Source: Prevotella sp.
GTDB taxonomy: Bacteria > Bacteroidota > Bacteroidia > Bacteroidales > Bacteroidaceae
Direction: 5' to 3'
DNA length: 45,783 nucleotides
Assembly (NCBI GenBank): GCA_016284895.1
Contig: JAEEPT010000003.1
Location: 1-45,783, forward strand
The notes beneath the pieces were generated by a model that did no database searches, had not been told where the DNA came from, and worked only from the letters and a program-made list of their open reading frames with translations. Position 1 is the first letter of the stretch; each line of letters starts with the position of its first letter. This document shows, piece after piece, positions 3,551-38,846 of this stretch. A program made the position numbers and the translations under genes.

Positions 3551-4351
3551 ATGAATAATAGCAATAATAATCAAAGCCCTTCAAAGCAGGAGGGGAATGG
3601 GGTGGGTTCCAAAGTCGTCATTGAACTACAGAACGTGAAGCGCTACTTCCAGGTGGGCTCAGAGACGGTGAAGGCACTGCGCGGCGTTTCGTTCAAGATA
3701 TACGAGGGGGAGTTCGTCACCATACAAGGCACATCGGGATCGGGCAAATCGACCCTGCTCAACCAACTGGGCTGTCTGGACACCCCCACCAGCGGCGAAT
3801 ACTTCCTCGACGGCATCAGCGTGCGCACAATGTCGAAAACACAACGTGCTCACCTCAGGAACCAGAAGATAGGCTTCGTGTTCCAGAACTATAACCTGCT
3901 GGCAAAGACCACTGCCGTGGAGAACGTGGAGCTGCCACTGATGTATAACTCGAAATACAACGCGGCCCAACGGCGCGAGGCAGCTATCAAGGCACTGCAG
4001 GCCGTGGGGCTGGGCGACCGACTGGACCACAAGAGCAATCAGATGTCGGGCGGACAGATGCAGCGCGTGGCCATAGCCCGCGCACTGGTGAACGACCCTG
4101 CCGTGCTGCTGGCAGACGAGGCAACGGGTAACCTGGACACGCGAACGAGCTTTGAGATGCTGGTGCTCTTCCAGGAGCTGCACCGTCAGGGACATACCAT
4201 CATCTTCGTGACCCACAACCCCGAGATTGCCGAATACTCCAGCCGTAACATCAACCTGAGAGACGGAAAGATCAGGGAGGACACCATCAATACAAACATC
4301 AAGTCGGCTGCAGAGGCACTTGCAGCACTGCCCAAACCAGTGGATGACTAA
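3551..4351 (+). CDS. ABC transporter ATP-binding protein (MacB-type)
   Basis: 266-aa ATPase of the LolD/MacB family. Motifs in order: Walker A GTSGSGKST (about 60-68), Q-loop FQN, signature SGGQMQRVAIARAL, Walker B VLLADEAT with catalytic Glu, and switch His in FVTHN. The ORF-track start at 3428 lies inside macA; the ATG at 3551 follows the repeat and gives the usual short N-terminus, although residues 1-19 are low-complexity (Asn/Ser/Gln-rich) and may be dispensable. E. coli MacB is one fused polypeptide; here ATPase and permease are separate genes, common in Bacteroidetes. It powers the pump through the permease encoded next. Confidence 0.93.
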   Translation: MNNSNNNQSPSKQEGNGVGSKVVIELQNVKRYFQVGSETVKALRGVSFKIYEGEFVTIQGTSGSGKSTLLNQLGCLDTPTSGEYFLDGISVRTMSKTQRAHLRNQKIGFVFQNYNLLAKTTAVENVELPLMYNSKYNAAQRREAAIKALQAVGLGDRLDHKSNQMSGGQMQRVAIARALVNDPAVLLADEATGNLDTRTSFEMLVLFQELHRQGHTIIFVTHNPEIAEYSSRNINLRDGKIREDTINTNIKSAAEALAALPKPVDD

Positions 4352-4418
4352 CCCACCCCCTACCCCTCCCGAGGGGAATAACCCACCCCCTACCCCTCCC
4401 GAGGGGAGGGGAGATTAG
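4349..4418. repeat. C-rich palindromic repeat, copies 2 and 3 in tandem
   Basis: Two direct copies (4349-4378, truncated after the first GAGGGGAA, and 4379-4418, full length) of TAACCCACCCCCTACCCCTC followed by a G-rich arm. The first overlaps the ATPase stop codon. Together they form most of the ATPase-permease junction and could act as a processing or attenuation hairpin within the operon transcript. Confidence 0.75.
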
Positions 4419-4439: not shown

Positions 4440-5657
4440 ATGAATATTCTCAATCTTTTCAAAGTGAGCCTTCGGGCTGTAGCTAACAATAAAATGAGGT
4501 CGTTCCTGTCGATGCTCGGCATCATCATCGGCGTGGGTGCAGTGATTGTGATGATGTCCATCGGACAGGGTTCGAAAGAAAGCATTCGCAAGGAGCTCTC
4601 AACGATGGGCACGAACCTGCTCACCATACGTCCGGGAGCCGACATGAGGGGCGGTGTGAGGCAAGATCCCTCAGCGATGCAGACACTGAAGATGGCCGAC
4701 TATGAGCGCATCATGCACGAGAAGAAGTTTGTGACAAAGGTGTCGCCCGAGGTGACGGCCAGCGGACAAGTGATCTACGGCAACAACAACACGACAACCT
4801 CGCTCTACGGCGAGAGCCCCGAGTATCTGGACATCAAGCTCTGGAACATTGAGGAGGGCGAGTGCTTCACCGAAGAGGACATCAAGAAGGCCGCCAAGAA
4901 AGTGGTGGTGGGCAGAACCATCGTCAAGGAACTGTTCGGAGAGAACGTTGACCCCATCGGAAAGACCATCCGCTTCAAATCCATCCCAATGACCATCGTG
5001 GGTGTACTGAAGTCGAAGGGCTACAACTCGTGGGGCATGGACCAGGACAACGTGATGATAGCCCCCTACACCACCGTAATGAAACGTATTGCTGCACAGA
5101 CGTGGTTCTCGAGCATCGTGTGCTCTGCCGTCACAGAGGAACTGAGCGATGCTGCCATAGAAGAACTGACACAGATTCTGCGCGACAACCACAAACTGAA
5201 AGGCGAGGCTGCCGACGACTTCACCATCCGCTCACAGGCAGAGATGATGCAGACAATGTCGAGCACGATGGACACAGTGACCATCATTCTGGTGGTAGCC
5301 GCTGCCTTCTCGCTGCTTGTGGCAGGCATAGGCATCATGAACATCATGCTGGTGAGTGTGACGGAACGCACGAAGGAGATTGGACTGCGTATGGCCGTAG
5401 GCGCTACGGGAGCCGTCATCTCACTGCAGTTTCTCATAGAGTCGGTGCTCATCAGTATCACGGGCGGCATACTGGGCATTCTGTTCGGCTGCGGACTGAG
5501 TGCGCTGGCCCCAATGGTGGGCATGCCGTCGAGCGTACCTGCCTGGAGCATCATCGTGTCGTTCCTCGTGTGCGTGATCATCGGCGTGCTCTTCGGCTAT
5601 ATACCAGCACTGAAAGCCGCACGAATGGATCCCATCGAGGCAATCAGACACGAGTAG
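4440..5657 (+). CDS. ABC transporter permease, MacB/FtsX family
   Basis: 405-aa permease of a type VII (MacB-fold) ABC exporter. One N-terminal membrane helix after NNKMRSFLSMLGIIIGVGAVIVMMSI (about 15-42), a large periplasmic domain (about 45-270), then three membrane helices in the FtsX domain (about 275-300, 325-350, 370-395) ending PALKAARMDPIEAIRHE, the conserved tail of this family. MacB does not translocate through the membrane but drives periplasmic substrate into TolC (family knowledge). Last gene of the efflux operon; followed by a heptamer array and a terminator. Confidence 0.93.
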   Translation: MNILNLFKVSLRAVANNKMRSFLSMLGIIIGVGAVIVMMSIGQGSKESIRKELSTMGTNLLTIRPGADMRGGVRQDPSAMQTLKMADYERIMHEKKFVTKVSPEVTASGQVIYGNNNTTTSLYGESPEYLDIKLWNIEEGECFTEEDIKKAAKKVVVGRTIVKELFGENVDPIGKTIRFKSIPMTIVGVLKSKGYNSWGMDQDNVMIAPYTTVMKRIAAQTWFSSIVCSAVTEELSDAAIEELTQILRDNHKLKGEAADDFTIRSQAEMMQTMSSTMDTVTIILVVAAAFSLLVAGIGIMNIMLVSVTERTKEIGLRMAVGATGAVISLQFLIESVLISITGGILGILFGCGLSALAPMVGMPSSVPAWSIIVSFLVCVIIGVLFGYIPALKAARMDPIEAIRHE

Positions 5658-5704
5658 AGGTGAGAGGTGAGAGGTGAGAGGTGAGAGGTGAGAGGTGAGA
5701 GGTG
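5656..5704. repeat. Heptanucleotide tandem repeat AGAGGTG x7
   Basis: Seven perfect copies of a 7-base unit starting inside the permease stop codon and running up to the terminator hairpin. One of several period-7 arrays in this window. Confidence 0.9.
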
Positions 5705-5710
5705 AGAGAT

Positions 5711-14365: not shown

Positions 14366-14457
14366 GGGTTAGAAGTCTTTTCTATTCCTTTATGACAAAG
14401 AGTTCTATTCCTTTATGACAAAGAGTTCTATTCCTTTATGACAAAGGGGTTAGAAGT
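14366..14457. repeat. 23-base tandem repeat x3, flanked by an 11-base direct repeat
   Basis: Three 23-base units (TTCTATTCCTTTATGACAAA + GAG) at 14380-14448, the last differing at its end, flanked by GGGTTAGAAGT at 14366-14376 and 14447-14457. The right flank overlaps the thrS stop codon, so the array looks like a local duplication of the gene's 3' end. Confidence 0.85.
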
Positions 14458-18026: not shown

Positions 18027-18157
18027 TTTTTTTGATTAGAATTGTTCACTTTTCTGTACCTCTATGAAGAGGCTTCATTTTTAGAAACGCAGCAACCTTC
18101 AAAATATTATTACGACACACGATTATTTTTTTCATTTCCTCACTTCATCAAAAAACT

Positions 18158-18220
18158 CCGATGCATCTAACGAGCCGTCCGATGCGTTTAACGAGCCGTC
18201 CGATGCGTTTAACGATTCGC
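18158..18220. repeat. 21-base tandem repeat x3
   Basis: Three units of CCGATGCGTTTAACGAGCCG + T with small differences (CATC in unit 1, ATTCGC in unit 3). One frame is open through the array for about 60 codons (reads SDAFNEP per unit) but has no ATG, so it is not called as a gene. Confidence 0.8.
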
Positions 18221-20674: not shown

Positions 20675-21684
20675 ATATCTTTGATACCATTCAGAAACGA
20701 TGGTGCATCCATTCGTTTCTTTCCTGCCAGTTGCAACTCGTCAATCTGGAGCCAACAGTCGCTGCATGCCACATACAGTTTCCTGTTCCTGACTTCCAAC
20801 TGCCCTGCCCTACCCTCAACGGCTTCCGTTGTCTTCGTGGTCTTGAATATTTTCAATAACGTCTCTTTTCCGTCGGCATCCTTCAGAGTGGTCCATGCTC
20901 CAGGATAGGGACTGAGTCCGCGCACGAAGTCATACACCTGCTTGGCAGTCTGGTTCCAGTTCACCTCACAAGTTTCCTTGAATATCTTGGGAGCTGGCTT
21001 CAGTGGAGAGTGGAGAGTGGAGAGTGGAGAGTTTGCTACCGCTGCAAGAGCATCGCTAAGGCCAGATGGAGCGATATAGTCTTTTTGTTCTATGCTCTCA
21101 GGATGCCCGTCAGCTTCTATGATCTTGTCGAGTGTCTTCAGGCAAATCTCAGCACCGAGGTGCATCAGTCCGTCATAGACGTACTCCACGTCGGCATCAT
21201 CGGGAATGTCGAAAGGCAACTGCATGATGATACGGCCCGTGTCAATGTCGTGGTCCAAGAAGAACGTAGTGACACCCGTCGTTGTCTCACCATTGATCAC
21301 GGCCCAGTTGATGGGAGCAGCGCCACGATACTGTGGCAACAAGGCAGCATGCACGTTGAACGTACCGTATTCAGGCATCGCCCACACCACCTCGGGCAGC
21401 ATGCGGAAAGCCACCACCACCTGAAGGTTAGCATTGTAGCTGCGCAACTGTTCCACGAACTCAGGGTCTTTCATCTTCTCCGGCTGCAACACGGGCAGTC
21501 CCTTCTCCAGTGCATACTGCTTCACAGCACTTGGCTGGAGCACACTTCCGTGCCGTCCCACGGGTTTGTCAGGTTGTGTCACCACCGCTACCACATGATA
21601 GCCATTGTCTATCAATGCCTTGAGGGTCTCCACCGCAAACTCGGGTGTACCCATGAAAACGATTCTTAAATCTTGTTTCTCCAT
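20653..21684 (-). CDS. fmt: Methionyl-tRNA formyltransferase
   Basis: 343-aa enzyme formylating initiator Met-tRNA. N-terminal Rossmann domain starts RIVFMGTPEFAVETLKALI; catalytic Asn-His-Asp set is visible in FNVHAALLPQYRGAAPINWAVI and LDHDIDTG; the C-terminal tRNA-binding barrel starts near FKETCEVNWNQTAKQVYDFVRGLSPYPGAW. Slightly longer than the usual ~315-325 aa because of a linker around residues 217-231 (NSPLSTLHSPLK) encoded by a heptanucleotide array. Located 38 bases after the ClC gene, same operon. Confidence 0.95.
   Translation of the reverse strand: MEKQDLRIVFMGTPEFAVETLKALIDNGYHVVAVVTQPDKPVGRHGSVLQPSAVKQYALEKGLPVLQPEKMKDPEFVEQLRSYNANLQVVVAFRMLPEVVWAMPEYGTFNVHAALLPQYRGAAPINWAVINGETTTGVTTFFLDHDIDTGRIIMQLPFDIPDDADVEYVYDGLMHLGAEICLKTLDKIIEADGHPESIEQKDYIAPSGLSDALAAVANSPLSTLHSPLKPAPKIFKETCEVNWNQTAKQVYDFVRGLSPYPGAWTTLKDADGKETLLKIFKTTKTTEAVEGRAGQLEVRNRKLYVACSDCWLQIDELQLAGKKRMDAPSFLNGIKDIKSLTCG
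21002..21032. repeat. Heptanucleotide tandem repeat AGTGGAG x4 inside fmt
   Basis: Four perfect 7-base units plus a partial unit within the fmt reading frame, encoding NSPLSTLHSPL between the two domains. Gain or loss of one unit would shift the frame. Confidence 0.9.
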
Positions 21685-23554: not shown

Positions 23555-23589
23555 AAAATTGAAAATTGAAAATTGAAAATTGAAAATTT
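23555..23589. repeat. Heptanucleotide tandem repeat AAAATTG x4
   Basis: Four perfect units (23555-23582) and a degenerate fifth, starting 7 bases upstream of the clc -7 motif. Confidence 0.88.
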
Positions 23590-24688: not shown

Positions 24689-27637
24689 TTAAATAAACAA
24701 TTCTCCCATCGCTACCGAAAGAGAAACTTTGCACCTGTCACATATATCTGTAATAGTTGCTCCATTAGCTGACAATCCATAGAAGTTGTCTTCACTTATC
24801 AGAATATATTCCCACTCCCTGTCCATACGCTCTTCAGGTTTCAACTCATTGATTTTACGTGTCCACTCTACTGCTGCAGTTTGTTTCTGACGTACATTTT
24901 TGTCAAACAGCTTGTCATTCCCCTTTGTCTCAATCAAAAATATCTTCTTATCGGTACCAACGATAAAGTCTGGGTGATAGGTTGCCATCAAGCCATCGCT
25001 TCTCATATAGTAGATGACTGCAAAGGAGTGCATGTTCTCACTTATTTTCAAGAAGCGTTCCACTTCGCCGTCTCTGTCAAGAAATTCGATGAATGCCTTT
25101 TCAAAGCCACCACGACTTGTCGGATAGCCTAACCTTTCATAGATACACTTACTAACCTCCACAGAGAATGATTCACGCATCTTGATCTCCATAACAGATG
25201 AGAACTTGGTATGCACCACCTGTGCATCCGTTGTCATGATACTATTTTGTATATTGAAGATAGCTCGTGCCATTTCCTCAATGATGTGTTTGGTAACAAC
25301 AGCATCCTTTGACAAAAGGATTTTCCAGTCGTTGCCATTAAATGGATTAAACGGCTGTCCGAACAGTCTGGTTCGGATATATCGGTCAACAACGGCCATG
25401 GTCTTTGCTTCGTTAATCTGCAGATTTGGAACCGGTATCTCCTTATGCGCCGACACGCGGTCGAAGCGTAATGTGATAGTACGTAGCAATTTCTGCAAAT
25501 ACTCATTGTAGCTGGTGGCTGTAAACAGATTTGCCGTCACCTTATATCGCCCGAACTGTGTCTTCGAAATAGCCTCCTGAGAGATAAAGGTTTCTCCTTC
25601 CTGCGCCAGGAACTTACGCAGTTTTTCCAATGTAAATGCCTTAAAGGGTTGCAGGTCACGAATATCAATTTCCACATCCTCCAATTCCTCTTCTGCTTCC
25701 CTCACGATGATAGGCCATTCAAAGTCGAACTGTTCATAGTTCTCTCTCAATCCCACCTTGATCATGTCACCTACTGCCCCCGACGCGCCTGTCTCGCCTG
25801 TTTCCTCTGCAGCCAAGCCTTCGGCAAATAATTCTTCATAGAATTGCAGGAAAGCCGGATGCTCAATGATGCTCAGCATGTCGATATATGTCGTGGGATG
25901 GGTATGAAGCTGAAGCACACGTTTTCTGTCAAGTTCCTTGATGCTCTGGTATTCTGGCTCTCGCCACATCAACCGCAATCCTCGGCCAATGATTTGCTCC
26001 AACAGGATAGGCGCTTCCGACGAGCGTAGCGGTACGATGACACAAATATTGTTTACATCGAAGCCTTCTCTCAGCATCAATACAGAGATGATGACCCTAG
26101 GCTTCTGATATTTGTCTATGTCGAAGAGCTTCTTCTTTGTTTCTTTCCATTCCTCTTCGCTCACTTCACCCTTGGCATTACTGTCTATGGTGACAACATC
26201 TTCTTGAGCCAATCCGTCTTCCAACAAAAGCTGATTGACGAAAGGCGCTACCGACGTATCTTCACAGATGACCAGCATCTTCGGGTTCTTCTTCTCATCA
26301 ACGGCGGTGAATTCCGTTTCCAGTCTTTTCAGTTTGGCAAGTCCTGCACGCAGCATCAGTCGCTGACCGTCGCTCAGATTGCAAACCTTGTTTCGCTCAT
26401 CGCGCACAGCCTTATAATCTAAGTCCTTCAGCTCTGTCAACTCTTGCCTTCTGTCCAAAAGAAGTGTCTTCACCAGTCCCTTGCGCATAGCCGTTGCCAA
26501 GTCGAAGTCAACGATGATATGGGGGAAGTAGCATTTCTGCACTTTCTTGCCTGAGCCACACTGATCATAGGGTGTGGCTGAGAAGTCCACTTGAAAGAAT
26601 CGTTCGCCCTTTTTCTCGGCTATGGCATTCAGTCCTTTCTGCCATTCTACTTCCTCTATCTCACCGTTTCGCTTCAGTTCATGGATGTGGTGAGCCTCAT
26701 CGTTGATGACCATGATGTCATCCAACTCTGCCAGATACTCCAGTTCCGAGCCACGCAGATAGCGGCGGTCAAGCATTCCCAAGTCATTGCCAGCCGCCTT
26801 GCCGGGACGGATGGGCAACAGCTTTTCAATTATTTCTGGTACACTCAACTGACCACTCCCCTCCGCAATCGGAGATGGGTCGGAGGTAAGGCTTTGGTTC
26901 TCAAACAGATGCCAGTTGGTCAGCGCAATCAGTCCGTCACCCGTTGTCTTTCGTCCGATGCCCTCTTCCTTTGTCACCACATTGTTCTGTATGAACGAAA
27001 AGACTTCCTGCCGATAATGCACAGGGATGAACACCTCTTGATTCAGATAGAAATCGTTCGTCTCTATGTTGCGCTCTGTCTTGCCACGTTCCATTCGTCC
27101 ACAGAAAGCATCCAACAGTCGGTCATAAACTATCAGACCAGGAGCTACGATCAAGAAGTTTTTTGTGAATCGGTTGGCAGAGTGACCACTCCCCTCTCCA
27201 ATCGGAGAGGGGTTGGGGGTGAGGCTGTGTCTGGCATTCAGCATCTGCCATATCAGCAGGGCATGCATCACCCACGTCTTGCCCGTGCCAGTAGCCATCT
27301 TCACAGCATACTTAGGCATCTGGTATTTCTTCTGTCCTAAGGTGCCTAAGTCCACGATGGGCATCAGGTCGGGTGTCAGTTGTTCGTAATATTCCATCAC
27401 ATTCTTTACGCCCATCACCTCATGCAGATAGATGATGTTCATGATGGCCTGTCGCTGACCAGCATGGAAGTTTCGATTTCTCAACGAACAGTATTCCTCT
27501 GAGAACCAGAACTTCAGCAGTTCCTGTGTGGTGGGTGTCACTTGCTCCATCAGTTCTCCACTCTCCCATGCAGCGTTTACCGTCTCACTGAGTCGCTTCG
27601 CCAACTCTAAAGAGACATTCATACTGTTATTTTTCAT
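24689..27637 (-). CDS. Type III restriction enzyme, Res subunit
   Basis: 982-aa helicase-nuclease cutting DNA after head-to-head recognition of unmethylated sites by Res-Mod. SF2 motif I ATGTGKT (about 115-121), motif II DEAH (about 313-316), [10 protein letters not shown] (motif III-like), QIIGRGLRL (motif VI), and C-terminal PD-(D/E)XK nuclease in [22 protein letters not shown]. The ATG overlaps the Mod stop (ATGA), so the pair is translationally coupled. Two short peptide inserts, [13 protein letters not shown] (about 139-151) and [13 protein letters not shown] (about 250-262), are encoded by a palindromic repeat family. All motifs are intact, so it may be functional. Confidence 0.93.
26851..26892. 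repeat. C-rich palindromic repeat in frame in res, copy 5
   Basis: GACCACTCCCCTCCGCAATC followed by a GGAGATGGG arm; encodes [13 protein letters not shown]. More diverged than the copy at 27184, suggesting an older insertion. Confidence 0.75.
27184..27226. repeat. C-rich palindromic repeat in frame in res, copy 4
   Basis: CCCCTCTCC pairs with GGAGAGGGG around AATC; flanked by CACT and GGGGGTGAGGCT. Encodes [13 protein letters not shown] in frame without a stop. Its reverse complement matches the C-rich elements at 3492-3530 and 4379-4418 in layout. Confidence 0.8.
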
Positions 27638-33158: not shown

Positions 33159-34637
33159 CTACATATTTCTGTATTCGCCTATGCTCTGCTGATAGTCGAG
33201 GAGGCGGTTGTGATAGTTGGCTTGGGCATCGGCGTGCTTGTCGAGGGCCTGACTGTAGAGGAGCTGAGCCTGAAGAAGATCGCCCACCGTGCAGGTGCCA
33301 GCCTTGTAGAAGTTACGGTGGAGGCGCAGATTCTCTTGAGCCTGTTCTATCCCCTGAAGAGCCAACTGCATCTGCTGCCACGCCTCCTGCACACCGTTCC
33401 ATGCGTTCTGCATGCGGATGTGGAGAAGCTGGGAGGTGTCGTCGAGCTGTTCCTCAGCCTTGCGCTGTTCTATCTTGCGGTGCTTGATGGCATGCGCCCC
33501 ACCCCACCAGTCGCTCAGCGGCACGCTGACGGTAGCGAAGAGCATGCCGAAGCTGTGGTTCTGCTTGCCTCGGGATGCATCGAAGAGCGACTTGTCGAGC
33601 ATGTTGTGGAAGTGATAGCCAGCCCCCACAGCCAAGGAGGGAAGGTTCTTGCCCACCTCCATCTTGCGCTGAAGGCGCATGGCCTCTACCTGTTTTTCGA
33701 GCAACTTGTATTCGGGCAGCGAACTGAGCGAGCCCTCAGCAGGCGCAGGCATGAGCACAGGGTCGGAAGGAGGTGACGCAAGGGTGAAGAGCGTATCGCG
33801 CAGACCGCAATGATGAGCCAGCGTGAGCTTCACGACAGAGATGGCGTTCAGGAGCGTCAGTTTATTACTCTGTACATCATTTTGCCGCAACTGCACCTGC
33901 AACAGGTCGTTGCGCAGGGCAACACCAGCCTTCACAGCCACACTCGCATCCTTGCTGAACTCAGCCAGCATCTGTTCGACGGTGTTGACGGTGCGTAGCT
34001 TCGCGTAGAGTGTGACGAGCTGCCAGTAATAGTAGGTGGTGGTGCGGTCAACCTCGTTCTCAGAGAGTTGCAGTTTCAGTCGGCTCACGTCCTCGCCCAC
34101 CCGAGCCAGACGGTTGCCATTGATGATCTGTCCGCCTGCAAAGACGGGCTGCACAGCCGTGACACCAGCCATAGCGCCATTCTTCATCAGCGTGAAGCTC
34201 AGCGGATTGCCAATGGCACTGAGTGAGGTCATCACCTCGGCGGGCAGCACAGCCTGAGCCACGTTCTGCACACCAGTGACGAACTTTTCCGGAATCATCT
34301 TCAGGATGGAAGCATTCTCAGTGGAAAGGAGGTCCTTGGGATCGACCTCCATCTTCGCCATACCGTTATTGGTAGTGAACCACAATCCTGTGGCACTGAT
34401 GTTGGGGAAATACTTGGTGAAGGCCTCACGCCTCTGCTGGCGAGCAGCATCGATGTCGTGACGGGCAGCACGCAACTTGTTGTTGTGAGTGCGGGCAGAG
34501 TCGTTCAGCTGCTGCAACGTGTATGTTTGCGCCCAAGCGGGACTAAATGACAAATGACAAATGACAAACGATAAAATCATCAGCATCATCCGTCTTTTTC
34601 TCATGCTAAGCATTTTCATAATCATGTTCTTACCCAT
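33159..34637 (-). CDS. TolC-family outer membrane efflux protein (RND operon)
   Basis: 492 aa from ATG 34637; the track start at 34652 is a GTG and several ATGs follow, so the exact start is uncertain. Signal peptide includes MMLMILSFVICHLSFSPAWAQ, part of which is encoded by a heptamer array. The mature part shows OEP helices (LQQLNDSARTHNNKLRAARHDIDAARQQR, FTKYFPNISATGLW). It ends the minus-strand operon adaptor-pump-TolC and starts about 19 bases after the RND stop. It is only distantly similar to the tolC at 963. Confidence 0.9.
   Translation of the reverse strand: MGKNMIMKMLSMRKRRMMLMILSFVICHLSFSPAWAQTYTLQQLNDSARTHNNKLRAARHDIDAARQQRREAFTKYFPNISATGLWFTTNNGMAKMEVDPKDLLSTENASILKMIPEKFVTGVQNVAQAVLPAEVMTSLSAIGNPLSFTLMKNGAMAGVTAVQPVFAGGQIINGNRLARVGEDVSRLKLQLSENEVDRTTTYYYWQLVTLYAKLRTVNTVEQMLAEFSKDASVAVKAGVALRNDLLQVQLRQNDVQSNKLTLLNAISVVKLTLAHHCGLRDTLFTLASPPSDPVLMPAPAEGSLSSLPEYKLLEKQVEAMRLQRKMEVGKNLPSLAVGAGYHFHNMLDKSLFDASRGKQNHSFGMLFATVSVPLSDWWGGAHAIKHRKIEQRKAEEQLDDTSQLLHIRMQNAWNGVQEAWQQMQLALQGIEQAQENLRLHRNFYKAGTCTVGDLLQAQLLYSQALDKHADAQANYHNRLLDYQQSIGEYRNM
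34545..34565. repeat. Heptanucleotide tandem repeat AAATGAC x3 in signal peptide
   Basis: Three perfect 7-base units (GTCATTT in the coding sense) giving FVICHLSF within the signal peptide. Twenty-one bases keep the frame; one unit more or less would not. Confidence 0.85.
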
Positions 34638-34655
34638 TTTATCATTTTTCACTTA

Positions 34656-37600
34656 TCATTTCTTATTCAGGCTCGAAGAGCCGCCATTGACTTTCCAATA
34701 CACCACAGGCAGCATGGTGACCACCATGATGAGTGAACCTATGCCGCCGGCAAAGATGGTGACACCTACTGGCATCCAGAAACTGGACTGCGCGATAATC
34801 ATGGGCACCACACCCACAGCGGTCGTGGCAGTGGTGAGGAAGATGGGCACCATGCGGCGACGACCGGCCTCGTAAGCCGCGTTTCGGATGATTTCATCTT
34901 TCCTCTCTCCACTCTCTTCTACTCTCTCTGCTCTAACAACATCATTCGCATGTTCGAAGATAAGAATCTCGTTGCGCATGATCATGCCCATGAGCGTAAT
35001 GACACCCATGATAGAGGTGAGTCCGAGTGTGCGTCCCATAAGTCCCAGTCCGATGAGCGCACCAGGAATTAGCAGAGCGAGGGCTACGATGCATACGGTG
35101 GTGATGCCAAACTTCTTGAAGTTGAACAGCAGGAAGAAGAAGATGATGACGATGGCAATGGCCACGCCACTGAAGATTTGCGGCATGGAACGTGAGTTGT
35201 ACTCTATCTCGCCACCCACCTCGGCACGCACGCCCTCAGGCAGCTGAATGTCGTGCTTCATGATGTCGGCAATGCGGTTCTCCACAGGCGCTGCATAGAC
35301 CCCCTGTGCAAACTGTGCGGTAACGGTGATGCACCGCTCGCCTCCACGATGCATGATGCGGCACTCGCTCCAGCGGGGTGCGACGGTGGCTATCTGGCGC
35401 AGCGGCACAGCGGTGCCGGAGCGTTGGGAGGTCGCAGCTGACAGCATGGTGACGGGCGACGAAATGCCCAGATTGGCAATGGAGGAGAAGGTCATGTCGG
35501 CTGTGTCTTTCACAACGATAGGCACTTCGTAGTCGCCCAGTCCCAGACGATTGTCGCTGAGCTGCTGGCTCTCCCACACCTGTCCTACGCGCAGTGTGCT
35601 GACGGCACCGCCAAGGGCCAGGGCAGCCGACGAGCGCGTGATGCCCAGACGGGCCGAAGCCACTGGGTCGAGCTGCACGCTGACGAGGGGCGATGGCTGC
35701 AGGAAATCGGTGTGCACCCACTCCAGCTCAGGCATCTCGCGCATGCGCTCCATGAGCCGTTCGGCCACCACATGCAGCGAGTCGAGGTTGTCGCCATAGA
35801 ACCGATACTCCAACTCAGGCACTTCCAGATAGTCGAGCCGTTTGAACCGGACGTATGCCTCAGGAAACGCCTCGCTCCACTGTGGCTGATACTTGGCCAG
35901 AAGCTGGAGCGTTGCCTGGTCAGAACTGGTGTTGACAATGAACTGCGCAAAGTTCTTGCCTGCCATCTGCGGCGCATAGCACGTCATGAACCGAGGCGAA
36001 GAGCAACCAATGAAACTGGTGACACACTCCACCTGGTCATCGGCCTGAAGCACACGTCGCAGCGAGTCGGCTATCAGACGGGTGTTGCTGAGGCCCTTGC
36101 CTTCAGGCAGGAATATCTCGATGGCAAACTGGCTGCGGTCGGCGAATGGGAACTGACGTATCTTGAGCGTGGGCAAGATGAGACACGACAACAGCACCAC
36201 ACCGATGCCTCCCACGATGGTGGCCCAAGGATGACGGAAGGTGGCATTCAGCACACGGTCGTAGGTGGTCTGCACCCAGCGCGTGATGACATTCTTGCCA
36301 GTAGGCATCTTATCGGGCTTGATGATCAGCACCTCCAGCAGCGGAATGACCGTCACAGCCAGGAAGAGCGACACCATGAGATTGATGGTGATGGTGACGG
36401 GGAAGTCTTGAAGCGCATCGCGGAAAGCGCCCGTCATGGTGAACAGCAGCGGATAGAAGATGACGCTGATGCAAAGGGTGGCGAGCATCATGGGCATGAA
36501 ATACTGACGAGACGACTCGATGGCAGCGCGGTAGGGCTCGTAGCCCTTGCCCAGATACTCCAGATAGCCGTCGATGACCACAATGGAGTTATCGACCACC
36601 ATGCCGAGCACTACAATGAGAGCAGCCAGCGTAACAATATTGAGCTCAATGCCCATCAGATACATGAAGCCCACGGAGATGAACGTGCTGAGCGGAATGG
36701 TGATAGCAGCCACTATAGCAGAACGGATGGGGAACAGCACCATCATGACAAGAATGATGATGAGCATGGAGAGAGCCAGGTCGCGCAGAAAGTCGGACAC
36801 GCTCTTGCTCACCACCTTCGGCTGATCGGCTATGCGGGTGATGGTCACATCGTCGGGCAACTGGCTGGTACGAAACTCCTGGAGCACGGCATCGACTTCC
36901 TTGCCATACTGCACGATGTTGTTGCCAGGTGTCATTTCCAATGACAGCAGCACACAGGGATGACCATCCTGCTCGATGTAGCTGTCGGAGCTGTCGTACT
37001 CGCGCACCACACGGGCCACATCCTTCACTCGCACCACCTTGCCACTGGCAGCATCGCTGAAGATAATCTGATGGGCTATCTGTTCCTCGCTGTTGTTGGT
37101 GGCTTCTACATGGATAGGCACCTGCTGGTCTTCGTCGCTGATACTGCCGCTCATAGTGGTGAGCCCCTGCATCTGCAGCTGGCTGAGGAGCGAGGTCTGC
37201 CCAATGCCGTAGGCCTGCATGCGCTCTCGGTCAATGTAGAGTGCTATCTGCTCCTTGCGATTACCATAGACACGGACATTGGCTACCGAGGGAATGCGAC
37301 GCAGACGGTCACTCAAACGGTCGGTATAATACTGTAGCTCGCGATAGCTGCGCTCAGGACTCTCGATGGCGATAAGCAGTGCCGAGGTGTTGCCAAAGTC
37401 GTCGTTGGCCACCAATGCCAGCACGCCGCCCGGCAGCGACTGCTTGAACAGCGTCAGACCGTGCTTGATCTTGCTCCACACCTCATCCTTATTGTCAACA
37501 TCGTCGTTCAGCCGGAGCATCACCAAGCAAAGCCCATTCTGCGAAGTGGTGGTGGTCCTGGCACGATCAACTTCGGAAAAGGTGAACAGATAGCGCTCCA

Positions 37601-37811
37601 ACGGGCGAGCCACCTGCTGCTCTACCTCCTCACTCGTAGCGCCGGGATAGACAGCCACCACCACCCCCTGACGGATGGTGAAAGCGGGAAACTCGTCCTT
37701 CGGCATGACATACATTCCGAAGATGCCCAGCAAGAACAGCAACGCTACGAGTAGCAGCGTGATGGGATAATGATCGAGGGGCCACTTCAGCCAGTTCATT
37801 GATTTCTCCAT
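34656..37811 (-). CDS. RND efflux pump, inner-membrane transporter
   Basis: 1051-aa HAE1/AcrB-like proton-driven pump. N-terminal helix DHYPITLLLVALLFLLGIFGMYVMP, two large periplasmic loops and twelve membrane helices, with ALIVVLGMVVDNSIVVIDGYLEYL (TM4, Asp residues of the proton relay) and GVITLMGMIMRNEILIFEHANDVV (TM10). Length is typical. Just after TM10 the sequence RAERVEESGERKDE looks like a short extra insert. Starts 3 bases after the adaptor stop. Substrates cannot be told from sequence. Confidence 0.95.
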   Translation of the reverse strand: MEKSMNWLKWPLDHYPITLLLVALLFLLGIFGMYVMPKDEFPAFTIRQGVVVAVYPGATSEEVEQQVARPLERYLFTFSEVDRARTTTTSQNGLCLVMLRLNDDVDNKDEVWSKIKHGLTLFKQSLPGGVLALVANDDFGNTSALLIAIESPERSYRELQYYTDRLSDRLRRIPSVANVRVYGNRKEQIALYIDRERMQAYGIGQTSLLSQLQMQGLTTMSGSISDEDQQVPIHVEATNNSEEQIAHQIIFSDAASGKVVRVKDVARVVREYDSSDSYIEQDGHPCVLLSLEMTPGNNIVQYGKEVDAVLQEFRTSQLPDDVTITRIADQPKVVSKSVSDFLRDLALSMLIIILVMMVLFPIRSAIVAAITIPLSTFISVGFMYLMGIELNIVTLAALIVVLGMVVDNSIVVIDGYLEYLGKGYEPYRAAIESSRQYFMPMMLATLCISVIFYPLLFTMTGAFRDALQDFPVTITINLMVSLFLAVTVIPLLEVLIIKPDKMPTGKNVITRWVQTTYDRVLNATFRHPWATIVGGIGVVLLSCLILPTLKIRQFPFADRSQFAIEIFLPEGKGLSNTRLIADSLRRVLQADDQVECVTSFIGCSSPRFMTCYAPQMAGKNFAQFIVNTSSDQATLQLLAKYQPQWSEAFPEAYVRFKRLDYLEVPELEYRFYGDNLDSLHVVAERLMERMREMPELEWVHTDFLQPSPLVSVQLDPVASARLGITRSSAALALGGAVSTLRVGQVWESQQLSDNRLGLGDYEVPIVVKDTADMTFSSIANLGISSPVTMLSAATSQRSGTAVPLRQIATVAPRWSECRIMHRGGERCITVTAQFAQGVYAAPVENRIADIMKHDIQLPEGVRAEVGGEIEYNSRSMPQIFSGVAIAIVIIFFFLLFNFKKFGITTVCIVALALLIPGALIGLGLMGRTLGLTSIMGVITLMGMIMRNEILIFEHANDVVRAERVEESGERKDEIIRNAAYEAGRRRMVPIFLTTATTAVGVVPMIIAQSSFWMPVGVTIFAGGIGSLIMVVTMLPVVYWKVNGGSSSLNKK

Positions 37812-37814
37812 AGC

Positions 37815-38846
37815 TTAGTAAACGACTTTGGTACCTTCACTCAATTTCTGATAGCCCTCGGTGACAATGCGGCATCCCGACTGGGGGCCACTCACCAGCA
37901 GGACACGGTTGCCAACAGTACTACCGATGGTCACTGCGGTACGATGGGCAGTGCTGTCATCGGTTACTGTCCACACGAAAAGCGAACCGTCGGCCCTGCG
38001 CTGCACTGCTGTGACAGGCACGGTGAAATGGGCGTCAGTTGCCGACGATGCTGACGAGAAGCTGACACTGGCCACCATGCCAGGCAACAGCTTGCGGTCG
38101 GCATTAGGCACATGGATGCGCACATCATAGGTATGGGTGAGCGCATCGGCTACCACCCCTTTCTCTATCAAGCCGCCGCTCACCTGCTTCTGCACGGCAT
38201 CGACACGCACCGTGGTGGGTGTGTTGGCAGAGATGGAAGCCAACTCAACCTCGGGCATCGACACCTTGACCTTCACCGAACTGATGTCGAGAATCGTGAC
38301 AACAGCTTGGGTGGGACGAGCCGTTTCGCCCACCCCCATGGCCTTACGCCCAATGATGCCGCTGACAGGAGCCTTCAGCCGGCAGTCGTCCAGGTTCTTC
38401 TGAGCCACTGCCAACTGCGAACGAGCCTGCGCCACCTTGCTCTCTATCTCAACCCACTGGGCCTCGGTGAGCGAACCACTCTCATGCAGCTGTGAATAGC
38501 GCTCCAGGGCATCGTTGGCCTGTTTCATAGCTGCCTCAGAGCCCGACAGGAGATTGCGGGCTTGGGTGTCATCCATCTCAGCCAACAGCTGACCAGCGCT
38601 CACGGCCTGGCCCTCGCTCACCAGCATACGGCGTATCACACCCATGCTGGTGAAGCTGACTGCCGTAGCCTCGCGCTCCTCAACGATGCCCACATAAGAT
38701 GAAGAACCAGCCTGCCCACCGGAAGTGAGCACCTCAGTCTTCACCCGAATAGGCGACTTTACCTGCCCAGACTTTCTCTCACCACACGAACTGCACAACA
38801 ATATCATCACGAGGATCAGACCCGTCATCAACTTCATTTTGTCCAT
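37815..38846 (-). CDS. RND efflux periplasmic adaptor lipoprotein
   Basis: 343-aa membrane-fusion protein. Lipoprotein signal MKLMTGLILVMILLCSSCGE (lipobox LCSSC), lipoyl domain halves (VIRRMLVSEGQAVSAGQLLAEMD and CRLKAPVSGIIGRKAMGVGETARP) around a helical hairpin (about 90-150), then beta-barrel and membrane-proximal domains. It bridges the RND pump and TolC. First gene of the operon; a second possible start is at MKLM, 38837. No regulator (TetR/AraC) is adjacent. Confidence 0.92.
   Translation of the reverse strand: MDKMKLMTGLILVMILLCSSCGERKSGQVKSPIRVKTEVLTSGGQAGSSSYVGIVEEREATAVSFTSMGVIRRMLVSEGQAVSAGQLLAEMDDTQARNLLSGSEAAMKQANDALERYSQLHESGSLTEAQWVEIESKVAQARSQLAVAQKNLDDCRLKAPVSGIIGRKAMGVGETARPTQAVVTILDISSVKVKVSMPEVELASISANTPTTVRVDAVQKQVSGGLIEKGVVADALTHTYDVRIHVPNADRKLLPGMVASVSFSSASSATDAHFTVPVTAVQRRADGSLFVWTVTDDSTAHRTAVTIGSTVGNRVLLVSGPQSGCRIVTEGYQKLSEGTKVVY

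Follow-up and report, generated by a model that had tools for sequence, protein, structure and literature searches.

The window, by which we mean the whole 45,783-nt stretch analysed here, carries on its minus strand an RND efflux operon in which the gene for the TolC/OEP-family outer-membrane factor contains a heptamer array (Table 1). On the plus strand the array reads AAATGAC ×3.43, and on the coding strand TTTGTCATTTGTCATTTGTCATTT; it is 24 bp long and perfect. The first-pass annotation had given its span as 34545–34565, which corresponds to the three full units, and the whole array reaches 34568. The same annotation held that the simple repeat encodes FVICHLSF and in this way provides the signal peptide with its hydrophobic core. 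Both points are borne out: codons 29–36 of the ORF match 34545–34568 exactly, and FVICHLSF falls at the h-region of an n/h/c layout.

Table 1. Coordinates of the efflux genes and of the parts of the repeat module at the tolC locus
Feature	Position	Strand	Remarks
RND periplasmic adaptor (membrane-fusion protein) gene	37815..38846	minus	upstream in same operon
RND (AcrB-type) permease gene	34656..37811	minus	upstream in operon; 3′ end overlaps the module's 5′ hairpin
5′ hairpin GGCTC-TTC-GAGCC	34670..34682	minus	within last codons of upstream RND permease
5′ region TGAATAAGAAATGATAAGTGAAAAATGATAAAATGGG, decayed inverse heptamer array (AAATGAT type)	34633..34669	minus	predicted mRNA pairing with signal-peptide array
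TolC/OEP-family outer-membrane factor gene, carrier of the module	33159..34652	minus	Pfam OEP, E 4.5e-45
Signal peptide MRKRRMMLMILSFVICHLSFSPAWA, from nearest good start, cut before QTY	34530..34604	minus	inferred from n/h/c layout and AxA↓Q
Heptamer array TTTGTCA ×3.43	34545–34568	minus	codons 29–36, FVICHLSF, hydrophobic core of signal peptide
Short inverted repeat CCC-GCTT-GGG	34532..34541	minus	directly 3′ of array, c-region (S-P-A-W-A↓Q), where the module has its 3′ GC hairpin (AGCCCTGCAAGGGCGCAAA type)

Read from the nearest suitable ATG, the N-terminus is MRKRRMMLMI-LSFVICHLSF-SPAWA↓QTYTLQ, with the arrow at the predicted cleavage site. Alternative in-frame starts lie further upstream, namely a GTG at 34652 and ATGs at 34637, 34625, 34619 and 34613. 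By rule, the sequence has a positively charged n-region, a hydrophobic h-region and AxA before the mature protein, and on this layout it is plausibly a Sec signal peptide. The mature start of the protein aligns with that of TolC relatives bearing other signal peptides. An Rfam search of positions 34400–34800 gave no match.

The array in the window belongs to a DNA module that is dispersed and almost confined to the genus Prevotella. Each copy spans ~50 bp and consists of (TCATTTR)n, then A, then a small GC hairpin, the stem of which varies and tends to stay complementary. Of 398 genomes of the genus, 66 contain matches to the pattern TCATTTRTCATTTRTCATTTRTC, frequently in large numbers (maximum, 36 in one genome), whereas the reversed-pattern control gives about a dozen matches in total across same-genus genomes. 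Among 118 other genomes of the same order, a single one contains it, and named records with the module belong to Prevotella or Prevotellaceae, mostly rumen MAGs. One caveat here is that copies were found by DNA pattern, and hence array identity between them is partly built into the sampling. In open-licence papers, we found none with the peptide or with heptanucleotide repeats in Prevotella, and an earlier description elsewhere is possible.

Palindromes following the array include AGCCCTGCAAGGGCGCAAA, AGCGTAGCGCT and AGCAGCGTAGCTGCGCAG and, outside genes, GGGCGAAGCCC, GCAATGCTACGCATTGC and GACACGAAGTGTC. Triloop stems of at least 4 bp are seen in 28/55 signal-peptide copies and 19/36 other copies, in 37 distinct sequences, compared to 10% of shuffles; a perfect stem of this length is absent from about half of all module copies. 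The apex is C-GNA-G in about half, compared to 1.6% of shuffled hairpins. In a fixed register, all four Watson–Crick pairs occur at the inner positions, and pairing of the arms exceeds all 1000 shuffles in signal-peptide and other copies alike, with sequence relatedness uncontrolled. At the level of the family, the core is palindromic, with the hairpin enriched and covarying; the window copy, with its GCTT loop, is weak in this respect and not unusually stable by itself (DNA fold z −0.49). GNA triloops, d(GCGAAGC) among them, form unusually stable DNA hairpins.

On its 5′ side, the window copy has the hairpin GGCTC-TTC-GAGCC (34670–34682) followed by AAATGATAAGTGAAAAATGATAAAATG (34633–34669). 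With its C-TTC-G apex, the hairpin is of the kind seen ahead of 5′-UTR inverse arrays in relatives. Of 104 signal-peptide copies, 25 have inverse arrays of this sort, (AAATGAY)2 or more, within 250 bp upstream, as a rule in the gap that separates the start codon from the preceding gene; downstream of the same 104 there are none. Where enough flanking sequence is available, a triloop hairpin precedes 27 of 38 inverse arrays, and its apex is mostly C-TNC-G, the complement of C-GNA-G.

With the same codons and the same anatomy, the dispersed module is used in frame at the N-termini of many unrelated secreted-type proteins. Ninety-four copies were sampled without being chosen for coding: 55 lie in signal peptides (40 assigned by rule, 15 by eye), 36 do not and three are ambiguous. 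The 55 encode the h- and c-regions, LSF[IV]I[CY]HLSFS..AxA↓Q or a lipobox (LTSC), endings of both kinds being found, and most copies outside signal peptides have no apparent coding role. Of 83 genome-contig copies, 73 open in a single frame giving LSF[IV]ICHLSFS, a few of these representing intergenic read-through (for example, L112 and L131). Grouping by blastp sorted 117 signal-peptide copies into 65 protein groups without similarity, and the proteins that carry this cassette include SusD-like proteins, a TonB-dependent receptor, GH95, a phosphodiesterase, OmpH, TolC and propeller sensors. In related species, the window-type array also recurs in the signal peptides of genes that have no relation to tolC, and the window's own genome contains three further cassette signal peptides, at loci L001 (GTTTGTCATTTATCATTTGTC..., LSFIICHLSFSQAFAQ), L316 and L320.

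Two ideas on the make-up of the array were set aside. That the common A-G-A pattern stems from a selected preference for Cys rather than Tyr at the TRT codon is not supported, as signal-peptide and non-coding copies show no difference in A/G use (P = 0.27). Array length is a weak marker of coding constraint, with equal means (31.0 versus 31.3 nt) and a slightly smaller spread in coding (2.3) than in non-coding copies (3.6).

Coding use extends beyond signal peptides. Two P-type ATPases, from two species, contain the module in a loop that precedes WLYRAL. At this place, the sequences of relatives are unrelated or shorter, are decayed forms of the module or show period 7 of another kind. These copies indicate that the module and its kin also settle in variable protein segments, of which signal peptides may be the most accommodating. 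In the metal P-type ATPase loop, different period-7 sequences are seen from species to species (L247, L275, L341, L350, L351), which makes the loop well suited to studying the entry of such repeats into genes. Both this loop and tolC differ between relatives, and among those compared there is no clean empty site or target duplication.

The first-pass annotation had proposed a comparison with the signal-peptide DNA of related tolC genes. That DNA is non-repetitive in 28 of 29 other fetched TolC relatives, which have ordinary signal peptides such as MKKIIAIALCTVCCVNLTAQ; the encoded peptides, however, differ from that of the window, so that the comparison goes only halfway towards refuting the annotation, which had asked for relatives with the same peptide. 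The nearest relative, 81% identical over the mature part, is without the cassette, and LSFIICHLSFSVAQ is present in TolC relative L034 and in the isolate Prevotella sp. khp7 (L122). When presence of the cassette is mapped on a tree of TolC mature regions, four changes are required, each imposed by well-supported (starred) branches, and therefore the cassette was gained (or lost) several times in the tolC family. The simplest reading of the sequences is that the window tolC lineage acquired it after the split from L010. A protein search of the genome contigs yielded no relatives. In TolC relatives L029 and L038, PLTHREGAGEG and PLPHREGPGEG, respectively, immediately follow the signal peptide. 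Recombination at the cassette was considered as an explanation for several ortholog pairs that are 79–86% identical downstream and at the random baseline (about 60%) upstream, and was set aside, as fast-evolving upstream DNA and different synteny explain the pattern equally well.

The array is not the only one of its period in the window. Across periods 4 to 12, perfect arrays of at least three copies occur in the window for period 7 alone, four in number, and no period-7 array appeared in 20 first-order Markov shuffles, which argues that they are not due to chance. Across 605 kb of Prevotella loci (L099–L178), we counted 56 period-7 arrays of at least three copies compared to at most seven for any other period from 4 to 12; these loci were selected for the TCATTTR element, the source of 24 of the 56, and the remaining 32 lie outside the TCATTTR family. 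Prevotella thus emerges as a genus that prefers period-7 tandem repeats. At 5656–5708, a perfect AGAGGTG ×7.6 occupies the 3′ end of the gene for an FtsX-like permease, with a strong terminator hairpin after it; a change in the copy number of the array could alter the C-terminus of the permease. AGTGGAG ×4.4 (21002–21032) lies within fmt on the minus strand and reads in frame as SPLSTLHSPL, another coding heptamer family, and AAAATTG ×4.9 (23555–23588), a candidate promoter-spacing repeat, is directly upstream of a ClC-type channel gene.

Repeats of other kinds are scattered through the window. Just 3′ of an ABC transporter ATPase gene (4349–4407) is TAACCCACCCCCTACCCCTCCCGAGGGGAA, two 30-bp copies with CCCCTCCC-GAG-GGGAGGGG palindromes and a dispersed look. 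A 982-aa ORF (24689–27637) contains two in-frame 13-residue peptides that resemble a coding dispersed repeat. Intergenic repeats include a perfect 23-bp ×2.9 array (14380–14446) and a 21-bp ×2.8 array (18157–18215).

Probably, the h- and c-region of the window tolC signal peptide is a co-opted copy of a dispersed Prevotella repeat module, (TCATTTR)n plus A plus a small GC hairpin. The sequence of the module lends itself to such use. In the TCATTTR direction, the array meets no stop in any frame and, because 7 mod 3 = 1, each frame yields one and the same hydrophobic heptapeptide, F-[IV]-I-[CY]-H-L-S; the opposite strand has stop codons in every frame. The hairpin reads S-P-A-x-A↓Q, S-V-A-L-T-S-C and similar, and hence can provide a cleavage site or a lipobox. 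Copies would arise at the DNA level, and those would survive whose orientation and frame suit a secreted protein or which are harmless where they lie, be it in intergenic DNA or in a variable loop of a protein. Cassette peptides such as LSFVICHLSFSPAWA presumably work as signal peptides and are presumably kept by selection, and the module appears to have spread by copying rather than by local growth. Whether it does so as an agent in its own right is a bolder and rather doubtful proposition. A mobile or self-copying module would hand out export signals, such that Prevotella genes repeatedly become secreted or lipoprotein genes, or swap signal peptides, via the heptamer-plus-hairpin cassette, and the single-stranded C-GNA-G hairpin would be the recognition structure of a putative copying system.

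Two other accounts of the origin can be weighed against co-option of a dispersed module. The genus might make period-7 arrays everywhere by slippage, those in signal peptides being tolerated as h-regions accept any hydrophobic sequence. The strong period-7 excess, the many different unit sequences and the P-type ATPase loop with its different period-7 sequences across species are in line with such microsatellite growth, but arrays that grew locally and independently would not share one TCATTTR unit plus hairpin across intergenic DNA and 65 groups of unrelated proteins. We consider local growth decidedly unlikely for the module, and it survives only as a source of other heptamer families. Alternatively, LSFIICHLSFS, which recurs in many secreted proteins, might simply be a good signal-peptide core that evolved repeatedly. 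However, the synonymous codons are nearly always identical, and the same DNA occurs outside genes. When we searched with all synonymous codons for LSF[x]I[CY]HLSF, almost only TCATTTR codons were returned. These data argue for DNA ancestry and make peptide-level convergence hardly credible.

The function of the array raises two further possibilities, one at the level of the gene and one at that of its mRNA. The first-pass annotation expected slippage by one unit to frameshift the outer-membrane factor and switch the RND pump off. As an on/off switch, the array would be a phase-variable contingency locus in which slipped-strand gain or loss of one heptamer reversibly turns the efflux channel off. 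The arithmetic of the annotation is correct: the perfect tandem array of 3.43 units is part of the coding sequence, its unit length of 7 bp is not divisible by 3, and gain or loss of one unit shifts the downstream frame. Variation in copy number between relatives, with off-states, is not what we find. In 47 ortholog pairs of cassette genes, with identities of 55% or more, the two arrays never differ by a full unit, although arrays of fewer than about three units would escape the pattern and each species is represented by one genome; the differences in array length within pairs, 0–5 nt, are an edge effect. Among 91 classified copies that had not been chosen for coding, 55 follow a start codon in its own frame and open into a long ORF, and no clear frame-shifted off-state was recognised. 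Three to four units are present in 54 of the 55 signal-peptide arrays, and three units are short for a contingency repeat. Arrays are also often impure (A/G alternation), which lowers slippage. A switch is therefore very improbable. As for the mRNA, the inverse array in the 5′ UTR might pair with the signal-peptide array, enclose the start codon and regulate translation of exported proteins. In the predicted fold of the window mRNA, the 5′ region does pair with the array (z −2.25), and 195 of 200 shuffles fold less well. For 69 cassette genes, 5′ folds compared with shuffles give a mean z of −2.07 (median, −1.10), with more than half of the array predicted to be paired to the UTR in 46%. The restriction of inverse arrays to the upstream side of signal-peptide copies points the same way. 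Inverted copies, however, pair automatically, 4 of 35 non-coding copies also have upstream inverse arrays, many cassette genes are without a UTR partner, and Rfam offers no match; we regard regulation of this kind as unlikely.

The usual view is that a signal peptide evolves together with its gene. In Prevotella of the rumen and gut, dozens of unrelated proteins would owe their export signals to a dispersed DNA repeat. Here, the conversion of a repeat into a functional module of proteins can be followed in a concrete case and counted, and the case may offer a handle on secretome rewiring.

Several known systems resemble the module in part. Simple-sequence contingency loci, like the window array, have a tandem repeat within the gene of a surface protein and a unit length that is no multiple of 3; in the Prevotella module, unlike in such loci, neither copy-number variation nor an off-state is seen, and the number of units is tightly limited in coding copies. 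REP elements, associated with TnpA-REP/RAYT (Y1_Tnp) transposases, are likewise small dispersed hairpins in many copies, mostly near genes, but heptamer arrays, present in the Prevotella module, are outside their definition. Mobilisation by a RAYT/REP system was considered and rejected, since Y1_Tnp genes do not track copy number: genomes G032 and G290 have no Y1_Tnp match and six others have one or two, and G032 (97% complete) is nevertheless among those with the highest module copy numbers. Palindromic amphipathic repeat coding sequences (PARCELs, PMC2996958) are palindromic coding repeats too and have spread among surface-protein genes, yet they encode amphipathic repeats in the protein body, whereas the Prevotella module encodes a single hydrophobic export signal. 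The closest known kind, loosely comparable and by analogy only, would be protein-coding palindromic elements such as the Rickettsia palindromic elements (RPEs; Ogata et al. 2000, 2002, reviewed in PMC10969869), which are about 150 bp long and occupy assorted positions in metabolic and other genes. Both are short palindrome-bearing repeats found in frame in unrelated genes (65 groups with shared codons, in our case) and elsewhere, with the gene product keeping its likely function (PMC10969869). The Prevotella module differs in belonging to another phylum, in its length of about 50 bp, in its heptamer array and in its mostly N-terminal position, where it supplies the core and cleavage site of what is probably a signal peptide.
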